43,784 nucleotides of DNA from NCBI GenBank assembly GCA_900315395.1, contig OMZC01000045.1, positions 1 to 43,784 on the forward strand, given 5' to 3'. Below, in pieces: positions 3,817-8,573 of the stretch (position 1 is its first letter; each line of letters opens with the position of its first letter). Position numbers and translations under genes: made by a program. The notes beneath the pieces are model-generated. The model saw only the letters and a list, made by a program, of their open reading frames with translations, made no database searches and was not told where the DNA came from. This DNA comes from an uncultured Gammaproteobacteria bacterium (GTDB lineage: Bacteria; Pseudomonadota; Gammaproteobacteria; Enterobacterales; Succinivibrionaceae).

Positions 3817-5466
3817 TTACTCAAAACTAAATAAACGCTTAAAGAAGCCAACTTTTGCAGCTGAGATGATCTCTACTTCAATTGAAATTCCCTGGAAGTT
3901 AAATTGGAATGGAGGGATCTCAATATTGTCATCCTGTAATGCAGCAAAAATCTTTTTGAGCTCATTATACAGTTTTAAAAGATATTCATAAGCACATCTT
4001 TCAAGTATTTTGCTAAGGCTTGTTCTTACCTCAATTAACTCACTTGAGTCGTTTGCTCTTACAGGGCGCACAATCTCGGCGATATTGCAGCCTGTAATAA
4101 ACTGTATCCACAGTTTTAAGGATGGAGTAAGCCACATATCTGAAAAGACGTTACGAGCATCGTTATAGAGTCTGTTTAAATTTCTCAGTACAAGATCTTT
4201 TGCAGCAGCTCTCTCTTTACCTCTGCCCTTTACCTCATAACGTCTGTAAATAGTACGTCCTGAAGCGTCACGAATTTCTTTATAGCAGTTCTTTAACTTA
4301 GTGTCAGGAGCATTATCTGTAAAGTACAGTTTCTGATCATCACCACGGTGAGAAGCATACTGCTTTTGCAGAGCATCAAAATCAAAATGCTCAAAACGAG
4401 CTGAGCCATTAGCATCAAAAGACTGTTTGATTAAAGATGCTAAAAGCTTTTGCTTTTGATCTCCTGATAAGAAAACATCTAGGTTTTCAATGATAAAGTT
4501 TGAGAAGTTCTCTAACTGAGCACTCTTTAATTTACGCAAGTCGCATCGGTCTAAGGCAATTTGTCTTGCGGTCTCTAATCTGTGATTGTAGATTGAGTAG
4601 TAAATCAGAACCCAAACTTGCATCTTGAAGTTTAAGACGTTTTTAAAGATGAAATCTGCCATCTCATTACGTCCTTCAAGATCCTCTGTACCCCTGTTCT
4701 TTTGACGATGGAAGACCCAGTCACAGGCATACATACTCATCTCAAACCAGTTGATTCTGTCTGCTAAAGTGCCACTGAAGAACTCTTTAATCTCGTCATC
4801 AGTCAGATCTTTAAAAGAGTTTACATCGCGCTCAAACCACTTTTCTTTGGTCTTAGGTAATGGCCAAATAAAGTTGAACTGCATGCCACCTGCGCCCATA
4901 GTACGTTTTGACTTAGGGTGCTTTGACATTTCCTCTAATAAGAACCATAAAGCTGCCATTTGATGCAGGCGCTTTAACAAAGGTGTGTAATTGGTGTTTT
5001 CCTTATCATCTGGCAACATACCAATGAAGTCACACATCTTTGAAAGAGTGGTACATAATAGAGCTTTTTCATTATCGGCAAACAGATCATTCCAAAGCTG
5101 AACTATGGATACTACCTCTGAACTTTTTTCTAATAGTGAATAGAAAGGTTCTACAGTACTATCAAAACAGACCACTGATTTACCTTTTAAGTAATCAGCT
5201 TCAATCATGTCATCGATAGTTGGAAGATCACTGTTGTTCTCAATGAAATCTTTTGAGATATGCATCTCAACAGATGCATTAGACCAGCGTACTCGATTAG
5301 GAGTAGTTGCTGGTTTTAAAAATGAATGTACATATACCTCTGGTCTATCTTTTTTTAAGCTAGACCAGCTGAGAATGCCATATTCAAGGCATAAGCCCAT
5401 CTCACCTTCATTTGGGGTGTATGCATCCACAAAGAAGACTGCTTGGGGTTTAGATCTTTGAGCCAT
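3817..5466 (-). CDS. Protein with degenerate DnaQ-like exonuclease N-terminus
   Basis: A 549-residue soluble protein I cannot assign to a named family. Residues 10-180 follow the DnaQ/RNase T pattern: an FFVDAY strand, a YVHSFLKP strand, NASVEMHISKDFI resembling the family's 'A..vHgIt' block, VVCFDSTVEPFYSLL resembling 'lVaHNa.FD..fL', and LKRLHQMAALWFLLEEM resembling the 'HxAxxDAxxT' helix. The DEDD acids are largely replaced: DxE is D14-A-Y16, the motif II Asp aligns with E106, and the Asp after H168 is a Leu. Residues 200-549 are helical and charged with no recognised motif. It follows the DolP-like gene by 12 bases, so the two are probably co-transcribed; its own ribosome-binding site is weak. 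Fold assignment is inference. Confidence 0.7.
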   Translation of the reverse strand: MAQRSKPQAVFFVDAYTPNEGEMGLCLEYGILSWSSLKKDRPEVYVHSFLKPATTPNRVRWSNASVEMHISKDFIENNSDLPTIDDMIEADYLKGKSVVCFDSTVEPFYSLLEKSSEVVSIVQLWNDLFADNEKALLCTTLSKMCDFIGMLPDDKENTNYTPLLKRLHQMAALWFLLEEMSKHPKSKRTMGAGGMQFNFIWPLPKTKEKWFERDVNSFKDLTDDEIKEFFSGTLADRINWFEMSMYACDWVFHRQKNRGTEDLEGRNEMADFIFKNVLNFKMQVWVLIYYSIYNHRLETARQIALDRCDLRKLKSAQLENFSNFIIENLDVFLSGDQKQKLLASLIKQSFDANGSARFEHFDFDALQKQYASHRGDDQKLYFTDNAPDTKLKNCYKEIRDASGRTIYRRYEVKGRGKERAAAKDLVLRNLNRLYNDARNVFSDMWLTPSLKLWIQFITGCNIAEIVRPVRANDSSELIEVRTSLSKILERCAYEYLLKLYNELKKIFAALQDDNIEIPPFQFNFQGISIEVEIISAAKVGFFKRLFSFE

Positions 5467-7332: not shown

Positions 7333-7409
<77 letters not shown>

Positions 7410-7507
7410 TCTAAATCTCTCCCCTTTTTAATTCCTGATTAAATCAAAAATAAAGAGTAAAGAAAGGCTTTTTGGCTTTACCTTTTCTATTCTTATGATC
7501 TATTTTG

Positions 7508-7575
7508 AGTTCTTACACGAGACTTAAGTCTGAATGTAGTTCTTACACGATGTTCTGATGTTAGTTCTTACACAA
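7508..7575. repeat. Three direct copies of AGTTCTTACACGA
   Basis: AGTTCTTACACGA occurs at 7508-7520 and 7538-7550, with AGTTCTTACACAA at 7563-7575. Start-to-start spacings are 30 and 25 bp. It lies about 100 bp downstream of tRNA-Pro. Repeated short motifs of this type occur at the ends of some insertion sequences, but no transposase is present. Confidence 0.7.
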
Positions 7576-7618
7576 TTTCTTGTTTTCTCAATTAGTTTCT
7601 TTTCAAAAATCTACTAAC

Positions 7619-7658: not shown

Positions 7659-7749
7659 GATCAGGCTAGCAGTCTGCTTGTCTTATCGCCTTATTTATTG
7701 TCAAATCAGTTATACAGATTAGCTATAACGAGGTATAAATAATTAGTAT

Positions 7750-7778
7750 TTTACATATACCTAAAGCGTCTATATACT
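7750..7778 (+). promoter_or_regulatory. Sigma-70 promoter of the candidate small RNA
   Basis: TTTACA (7750-7755), 17-bp spacer, TATACT (7773-7778). Each hexamer differs from consensus at one position. The predicted start is A7785. Confidence 0.7.
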
Positions 7779-7784
7779 TTCTAT

Positions 7785-7917
7785 AAAGCTTAAGACATAG
7801 CAACCGAATGTTGGGCGGTTGTTATGTTTAAGCGCCCCAACCAGTTTAAATACTGTTTTGGATTTTTAAGATTTATCTTACCTTTGGTCCAGTGCCGTTA
7901 GGCACTGGATTTTTTTT
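7785..7917 (+). ncRNA. Candidate structured small RNA, about 133 nt
   Basis: A free-standing transcription unit with its own promoter (7750-7778) and a strong terminator (7888-7917), without an open frame and without any plus-strand gene downstream. The 5' half is a long hairpin: 7788-7806 pairs with 7816-7833 over about 18 bp with one bulged G. The loop GTTGGG (7810-7815) is complementary to CCCAAC at 7836-7841. That pairing is incompatible with an intact long stem, so two alternative folds are possible. Small hairpins follow (CAGT/ACTG at 7842-7855; TAAGA/TCTTA at 7867-7880). It matches no RNA family I recognise (not 6S, SRP, tmRNA, RNase P or Spot 42). Confidence 0.65.
7888..7917 (+). terminator. 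Strong rho-independent terminator
   Basis: TCCAGTGCC (7888-7896), loop GTTA, GGCACTGGA (7901-7909), then eight T residues (7910-7917). It ends plus-strand transcription 11 bases before the convergent gene's stop codon. Confidence 0.95.
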
Positions 7918-7928
7918 ATCTTGAAATT

Positions 7929-8573
7929 TTAGAAGGATGAAGCTGCTTTTGACAGGAGTTTTATAGCTTCTTTAGTTTTAGTCTCATTAGGATCTTCATC
8001 AAAGACATATAAGCCTACAGGGATCTCTTGTACTAAAGTGGTAATACCCAAAAGGTTTGCTTTCTTATTGGCGCCAAAGCCATTTAGATTAACTGTAGCT
8101 AGGAACAAAGCATAGGAGTCTGAGGCTGACTGCAACTTATACCCAAGATTTGACACCTTTGCGCCAAATGGAGCAATACGTCGGTTAACAGAGTTCTCTA
8201 CTCTATCTAATGGTGCTGACTTAAATGCTTTTGCAAGATTTACATACACAAATCTGCCTAGCTTAAAGTAGCCATAGTTACCGTCAATGCCGATTTGAGT
8301 AAAGGCAATGTAGTGACTTAATCTTCTGATATTTCCCTGTTCTAAAGCTTTAGTATCCATGCAGGGAGCTGCAATAAATCCAAAGTTTACAGAGTTACCA
8401 AAGGCAGCTTTGGTAAATTTATAGTAGTTAGTATCTTGATTGAGAACACAGTAGTTCTCAGGAAGAGAGATGTTAAAAGTGTTGTTTAAAAAAGTAGTTT
8501 CTACAGCATCTGCTCTACAACCGAGTAACAGCAACACTGCTCCAATTAACTTTGATGCAAATACCTTTTTCAT
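7929..8573 (-). CDS. Exported protein of unknown function
   Basis: A 214-residue protein I do not recognise. Residues 1-23 form a signal peptide. LLLGC fits a lipobox with lipidation at C19, but ADA-V just after could also be a signal peptidase I site. The mature part has alternating hydrophobic segments (VNFGFIAAP, YKLQSASDSYALFLATVNL, LGITTLVQEIPVGLYVF) suggesting a beta-rich periplasmic domain, and ends in a short Lys/Thr-rich helix. GGAT sits about 8 nt before the ATG. The gene converges on the candidate small RNA at 7785-7917. Confidence 0.75.
   Translation of the reverse strand: MKKVFASKLIGAVLLLLGCRADAVETTFLNNTFNISLPENYCVLNQDTNYYKFTKAAFGNSVNFGFIAAPCMDTKALEQGNIRRLSHYIAFTQIGIDGNYGYFKLGRFVYVNLAKAFKSAPLDRVENSVNRRIAPFGAKVSNLGYKLQSASDSYALFLATVNLNGFGANKKANLLGITTLVQEIPVGLYVFDEDPNETKTKEAIKLLSKAASSF

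Follow-up and report, generated by a model that had tools for sequence, protein, structure and literature searches.

A predicted small RNA gene shared by some Succinivibrio species, whose proposed seed match to the metY mRNA suggests what it may control

Introduction

Certain bacterial small RNAs (sRNAs) act inside polycistronic mRNAs and control one cistron separately from the next. GlmZ-glmS and Spot 42-galK are pairs of this kind, and in the former GlmZ frees a sequestered ribosome site. The sRNAs that work with Hfq typically end in a U-rich terminator. For genes of methionine metabolism, known sRNA parallels are the pairs scr5239-metE and RyhB-msrB. In Streptomyces coelicolor, scr5239 is reported to be an sRNA aimed at methionine synthesis (metE), with its site at the 5' end of the open reading frame (PMC4365011). 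In the case of Escherichia coli, control of methionine sulfoxide reductase (msrB) by RyhB, an iron-responsive sRNA, is reported (PMC3650055). Our search of the literature found no reports on sRNAs, Hfq or candidate structured RNAs in Succinivibrio; the sole match to Succinivibrionaceae combined with small RNA concerns quorum sensing, and among the matches listed for metY combined with sRNA or Hfq no title names metY.

The RNA predicted here is encoded in a window of 43,784 nucleotides (the whole stretch of DNA that was analysed), which belongs to the genome referred to below as G000. It has in common with Hfq-dependent intergenic sRNAs a sigma-70-type promoter, the lack of a conserved open reading frame, a conserved seed-like segment, a U8 terminator and the presence of Hfq in the genome, and differs from them in that it matches no Rfam family. 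As judged from sequence and conservation, its gene stands alone, with its own promoter and intrinsic terminator; its host encodes Hfq; and its conserved seed is, by computation, complementary to a trans-encoded mRNA, namely that of metY, in seven of eight genomes, with one mismatch in one of the two RNA classes (class B, see below). The predicted action within an operon resembles that of GlmZ on glmS and of Spot 42 on galK, although the Succinivibrio RNA has no Rfam match. Like scr5239 (PMC4365011), the RNA would concern methionine synthesis, in an unrelated organism and with a different predicted site, 50-60 nt upstream of metY instead of at the 5' end of a reading frame. The likeness to RyhB-msrB (PMC3650055) concerns msrAB as a minor candidate target, and the Rfam scan of the Succinivibrio RNA gave no match to RyhB.

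Genomic locus and predicted fold of the RNA

An earlier note on this DNA had proposed an orphan gene for a novel trans-acting or bistable RNA, made of a near-consensus promoter, a 133-nt non-coding body with an 18-bp hairpin, and a strong terminator. The promoter-like site TTTACA-17-TATACT was found where the note had placed it (7750-7778), and agrees with the consensus in 10 of 12 positions. Such hexamers by themselves are not above chance in this A+T-rich DNA, as 1.5 kb contained four promoter-like sites where shuffled sequences had 4.4 +/- 2.4, and the evidence for the promoter therefore comes from its conservation in relatives and not from the hexamer match alone. Terminator-like sites in the region numbered three, against 0.8 +/- 0.9 in shuffles. 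The three frames of the body contain short open stretches only; its hairpin and terminator fold as had been described, and there is indeed no plus-strand gene downstream, where the neighbouring gene lies on the minus strand (Table 1).

The minimum free energy of the 133-nt RNA is -50.4 kcal/mol, compared with -27.2 +/- 3.5 kcal/mol for shuffled sequences (z about -6.6), and none of the 200 shuffles folded as well. All eight homologues, that of G000 included, fold below their own shuffle means, with z between -3.1 and -6.6. For six of them none of 200 shuffles had an equal or lower energy, and for L002 and L006 two of 200 had in each case. The terminator helix is paired at 96% in the eight homologues, against 24-38% for slid controls. 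Covariation lends it modest support: on four of the five measures used, 10-22 of 500 letter shuffles did as well, and on the fifth 417 of 500.

With respect to known families, the view that none is recognisable was upheld by the covariance search. In the window, only tRNA reached or exceeded the gathering score of Rfam 15, and no match at E<=1 was obtained for the seven related loci described below. The best weak match of the RNA, to L10_leader (22.9 bits vs. the 44 needed), was aligned largely through the terminator, and membership in a known Rfam family was rejected because the gathering score was not reached. Identity with Spot 42 (RF00021) was rejected likewise: none of the 19 Succinivibrio genomes contained a match at the gathering score (80 bits), and weak matches (E<=0.1) occurred in 10 of the 19 and not in G000. 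All 19 genomes encode Hfq, with matches above the Pfam cut-off. In 17 of them there are two or more Hfq-family matches, the second and weaker one in open frames of roughly 100-185 aa.

The position of the gene downstream of tRNA-Pro (7333-7409), as described in the earlier note, holds in the window. A link between the two was rejected as incidental, since the 1.9-3.1 kb searched around each of the seven related loci yielded no tRNA. Between tRNA-Pro and the promoter of the sRNA gene, the window contains a 23-nt direct repeat with AGTTCTTACAC in three copies (7499-7576), spaced 30 and 25 nt. Elsewhere in the window, positions 3817-5466 of the minus strand encode a 549-aa protein that matched neither Pfam nor NCBIfam at E<=0.001.

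Conservation and distribution

The sRNA gene is present in a single copy in G000. The description of it as an orphan turned out to be wrong. A BLAST search with the 181-bp locus over 60 genomes (the own one, 18 of the genus, 17 of the family and 24 of the order) gave matches at E<=1e-3 in 7 of the 18 other Succinivibrio genomes and in none of the 41 genomes outside the genus. All seven matches span the 3' module only (about positions 114-173 of the query); promoter and body were identified afterwards in the flanking sequence. Conservation of the 3' module and terminator extends to 7 of 18 congeners, six of which also retain the promoter. A covariance model of the 3' module found it in 8 of the 19 genus genomes, the own one included; this result is partly by construction, as the model was built from the same eight, and at most 150 candidates were scored per genome. 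In a wider genome collection, the 3'-module pattern matched eight stretches, five in Succinivibrio/Succinatimonas, one in an Aeromonadales metagenome-assembled genome and two in unrelated bacteria. The first six are the genomes of six of the seven known relatives and add no cases, and the remaining two (Thorsellia, L044, and Chryseobacterium, L050) were taken as chance matches, both being inside long open reading frames. The best reading of these sequence searches is that the gene, so far found only in Succinivibrio, is restricted to this genus.

The RNAs fall into two classes that have in common the promoter, the upstream element, the 3' module and the terminator. Class A comprises the RNA of G000 and those of L005 and L007 (relatives G001 and G012), and its layout is hairpin 1, hairpin 2, a mini-hairpin and the terminator. 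Class B (L002, L003, L004 and L006; genomes G003, G009, G010 and G014) has a different 5' half, which is well conserved inside the class. The promoter and the upstream element can be aligned in seven of the eight RNA-carrying genomes, with a spacing of 17-18; in the case of G011, the upstream element has diverged and the 5' part of the RNA is short. The conservation of stems and promoter, on which the proposal of the earlier note depended, was thus found in part: the promoter is retained in six of seven relatives and the terminator helix with changes, at a modest level of covariation, and within class A the loop of hairpin 1 is kept and hairpin 2 persists despite sequence change, while the 5' half differs in class B. 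According to our computation, the RNA is structured and about 84-134 nt long; its 5' half is variable, and an invariant segment of 12 nt is followed by a terminator with a U tract.

In class B, the promoter operator pattern CTATARCNAGNTATNNAA, which is too tight for class A, matched only the sRNA promoter, at one site per genome in the four genomes, and no regulon sharing it was found there.

The genes for a secreted-looking protein and for aroA flank the RNA in G003, G014, G001 and G011, and aroA alone flanks it in G012. The contig of G010 ends at the locus, its other neighbours being the same as in G014, and in G009 the secreted-protein gene is about 5 kb away from the module. The secreted-looking protein itself has no Pfam match and occurs in 13 genomes of the 56 from the family, every one of them Succinivibrio. 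In G011 (L008, 1480-1560), TATCTTACCT and the terminator arm occur on both strands of one hairpin, so that this module would form the end of both the sRNA and the mRNA of the convergent gene.

Table 1. Positions of the promoter, RNA and neighbouring gene features in the window
Feature	Position	Strand	Remarks
Upstream promoter element, CTATARCNAGNTAT...AGTATTT	7723..7749	+	Aligned in 7/8 RNA-carrying genomes; diverged in G011
-35 hexamer, TTTACA	7750..7755	+	TTTCAC or TTTCCC in class B
-10 hexamer, TATACT	7773..7778	+	TAGAAT in L005 and L007; spacer 17-18
Predicted sRNA, 133 nt	7785..7917	+	Start deduced from the -10 hexamer, end from the terminator
Hairpin 1, 18 bp, one bulged A	7788..7833	+	7788-7806 pairs with 7816-7833; 9-nt loop
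Hairpin-1 loop stretch, GAATGTTGGGC	7806-7816	+	Kept as GARTGTTGGGC in class A
Hairpin 2	7837..7861	+	Different sequence in each of the three class A RNAs, hairpin retained
Mini-hairpin, UAAGA-UUUA-UCUUA	7867..7880	+	Holds part of the proposed seed; class A
Invariant 12-nt segment, TTTATCTTACCT, proposed seed	7872..7883	+	Identical in 8/8 homologues
Intrinsic terminator, 11-bp stem and U8	7886..7917	+	Changes on both sides in 3/10 consensus-helix pairs, 8 homologues
Convergent gene, 214-aa secreted-looking protein, then aroA	7929..8573	-	Pair flanks 4/7 related loci, aroA alone a fifth

Complementarity to the ispH-metY mRNA

Ahead of the terminator, the invariant stretch UUUAUCUUACCU has its complement in AGG(U/C)AAGAUA, a sequence located at the ispH stop codon or a few bases after it, 50-60 nt before metY. 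The product of metY was named by NCBIfam as O-acetylhomoserine aminocarboxypropyltransferase (O-acetylhomoserine sulfhydrylase); IspH and MsrA/MsrB were named by it as well. A search of the eight RNA-carrying genomes, sRNA genes included, with the seed pattern AAGGTAAGATAAA and at most one mismatch gave 134 occurrences, compared with 66 for the reversed control, part of this excess being expected because AAGG resembles a Shine-Dalgarno sequence. Of the 130 contexts that were read among the 134, 25 have a start codon within 39 nt (open frame of at least 40 codons). The non-coding sites that recur beside orthologous genes in three or more genomes, the sRNA gene aside, are those of ispH-metY and msrAB.

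For the ranking of targets, the 3' segment of the own RNA was scored against 308 start regions (-80 to +45) in 400 kb of G000, and that of class B against 311-312 such regions in 400 kb of G014; the G000 background served for class A, and that of G014 for class B and G011. These two genomes are the only sources of background, and the G000 stretches come from contigs known through seed hits, which is a mild bias. The metY region was chosen from the top of the ranked G000 list, where it was third, and then tested in the other genomes, the comparison covering all eight that carry the RNA. Regions scoring as well as metY or better were 3 of 308 in G000 (in a sample that contains metY itself), 0 and 2 of 308 in the class A relatives G001 and G012, and, of 311, one in G009, none in G010, one in G003 and none in G014. 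In G011, the RNA is present, the DNA before metY is different and the site is absent, 213 of 311 regions scoring as well. Over the seven genomes with the site, that is with G011 left out, the mean duplex energy is -16.7, compared with -9.4 +/- 1.1 for shuffled seeds, and none of 1000 shuffled seeds reached as low a value. The mean for metY of G000 and G014 is -17.4, while 25 other orthologue pairs have a mean of -9.6 (sd 1.3; best -11.8).

Most of the intergenic DNA has diverged from class to class and also among the class A genomes, yet the metY site is preserved in both comparisons. In the four class B species this site has a C opposite an A of the seed, with pairing on both sides of this mismatch; three of the class B ispH-metY intergenic regions are nearly identical and hence hardly independent. 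This pattern of complementarity indicates that the ispH-metY mRNA is a likely target of the 3' seed, and suggests what the sRNA may control.

Predicted folds in six of the seven genomes (not clearly in G000) have the site or adjacent bases paired at or next to the metY Shine-Dalgarno sequence. When the site was blocked in silico, the mean unpaired probability of the Shine-Dalgarno sequence increased in six of seven genomes in a shorter sequence frame and in five of seven in a longer one, where no rise was seen for G003 and G014. Control blocks of the same length performed as well, in the shorter frame, in 15 of 18 cases for G000, 3 of 21 for G001 and 3 of 20 for G012 (class A), and in 0 of 17 for G009 and 0 of 12 for each of G010, G003 and G014 (class B). 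The corresponding values in the longer frame are 13/33, 1/38 and 15/39 in class A, and 2/34, 1/31, 31/31 and 31/31, respectively, in class B. In these models, activation of metY appears possible and weakly supported, least so in G000.

Other candidate targets

Several seed-like sites occur near methionine-transporter genes. In class B, msrAB ranks at 0.3% in G009, 2.2% in G014 and 5.1% in G003, in all three of which it was first picked by the seed pattern, and at 22% in G010, where there is no pattern hit. For the start of the MetQ paralogue in G014 and G010 and for the metN Shine-Dalgarno region in G009, none of the 312 background regions scored as well in any case; these sites were also chosen by the seed pattern, and their top rank is partly by construction. 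We regard msrAB, the metQ paralogue and metN as weaker leads, that is, as candidate targets in class B species suggested by complementarity.

As a general target, metQ was rejected. The ranks of the MetQ family are ordinary, with the best at 3.5%, three places under 10% and the rest above, in a ranking that covered 30 of 49 matched places and to which the MetQ paralogues of G010 and G014 and metN of G009 do not belong. The cysK gene was not retained either, since it was at 2/308 in G000 but the best of 17 other cysK-family starts was only at 35/308. Also set aside were metE as a target of the hairpin-1 loop (fourth of 308 in G000) and a site in the gene after metI (G000 and G012), which falls in codons of a common EGKIK stretch and may be explained by coding. 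Apart from the sRNA genes, the three class A genomes contain the exact 11-nt complement of the loop a single time, and G000 and G001 not at all. This one occurrence, in G012 (C8:22372-22382; L190 1501-1511, minus strand), is about 120 nt upstream of a metQ-like gene.

Discussion

Results of our analysis suggest that the locus very probably encodes a real sRNA of a new, apparently undescribed family of an ordinary kind. The conserved 3' module, terminator and promoter, the lack of an Rfam match and the conserved complement before metY favour the trans-acting RNA that the earlier note had put forward. The reading that we prefer, and consider to be reasonably probable, is that of a stand-alone, probably Hfq-dependent trans-acting sRNA, the 3' seed of which pairs with the ispH-metY mRNA. 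The RNA would be made from its own promoter, Hfq would attach to its U-rich 3' module, and UUUAUCUUACCU would pair with AGG(U/C)AAGAUA just after the ispH stop codon, which would alter the output of metY separately from that of ispH. A site 50-60 nt upstream is outside the usual ribosome footprint, and direct ribosome occlusion is for this reason unlikely. Activation by freeing the metY Shine-Dalgarno sequence is possible; repression or decay is equally allowed, and there may be decay or termination between the ispH and metY cistrons.

A clearly smaller, though still appreciable, probability is assigned by us to a real trans-acting sRNA that does not have metY as its target. AGGYAAGATA would then be an unrelated cis element, and the RNA would act on other mRNAs via the hairpin-1 loop or the 3' segment. 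Such an explanation would account for the conservation of the loop in class A, for the mismatch in class B metY sites and for the complements at msrAB, galT, metN and the metQ paralogue, all of which were chosen by the seed pattern. It is at odds with the position of metY at the top of about 310 regions in seven of eight genomes, which no shuffled seed equalled over those seven, and with the near absence of exact loop complements from the class A genomes. It is improbable, in our opinion, that there is no RNA gene at all and that the conserved part is a bidirectional terminator of the convergent aroA operon surrounded by decayed intergenic DNA. The alignment of the promoter and upstream element at a spacing of 17-18, the good conservation of the body inside class B and the folds better than shuffle means would be difficult to reconcile with decay, as would the three hairpins that class A retains before the terminator though the sequence of hairpin 2 changes. 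The module of G011 on both strands of one terminator hairpin, the different 5' halves of the classes and the BLAST matches limited to the 3' module fit a terminator, yet in G009 the module persists far from the convergent gene.

The bistable RNA of the earlier note, which would switch folds or form a pseudoknot through 7810-7815 and 7836-7841, has to be regarded as very improbable. GTTGGG and CCCAAC at these positions are exact complements, as had been noticed, and this six-base pairing is worth -9.2 kcal/mol, but the alternative fold is 9.6 kcal/mol worse. Moreover, L005 and L007, the two relatives with the loop retained, lack the CCCAAC partner: the longest exact complement of their loop is 4 nt, and its best partners when G-U pairs are allowed, at -4.9 and -8.3 kcal/mol, belong to the terminator stem and not to the part after hairpin 1. 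Retention of the loop without the same internal partner argues against the switch. Hardly any more credible is a small mRNA or dual-function RNA coding for a short peptide. Frames of 7-14 codons do start in class A at an ATG or GTG of the conserved loop, but neither their lengths nor their sequences are kept (both judged by eye). In class B, L002-L004 have frames of 70-91 aa that are open across the RNA, and in L006 no frame of at least 60 aa covers it.

The preferred trans-acting sRNA with metY as its target could be taken further, at a strength that we rate as low. It could be a dedicated methionine-supply sRNA evolved within Succinivibrio, which opens the helix hiding the metY ribosome site and thus raises homocysteine synthesis apart from isoprenoid synthesis, and which in species of the S. 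dextrinosolvens type would also pair with the start regions of msrAB, metN and the metQ paralogue. If this were true, the methionine-supply sRNA would tie together the synthesis, the uptake and the repair of methionine.

Members of Succinivibrio are abundant succinate producers of the rumen. A conserved RNA for which a testable target can be named would give access to post-transcriptional control in the Succinivibrio group, and would add a further case of sRNA control of methionine synthesis.
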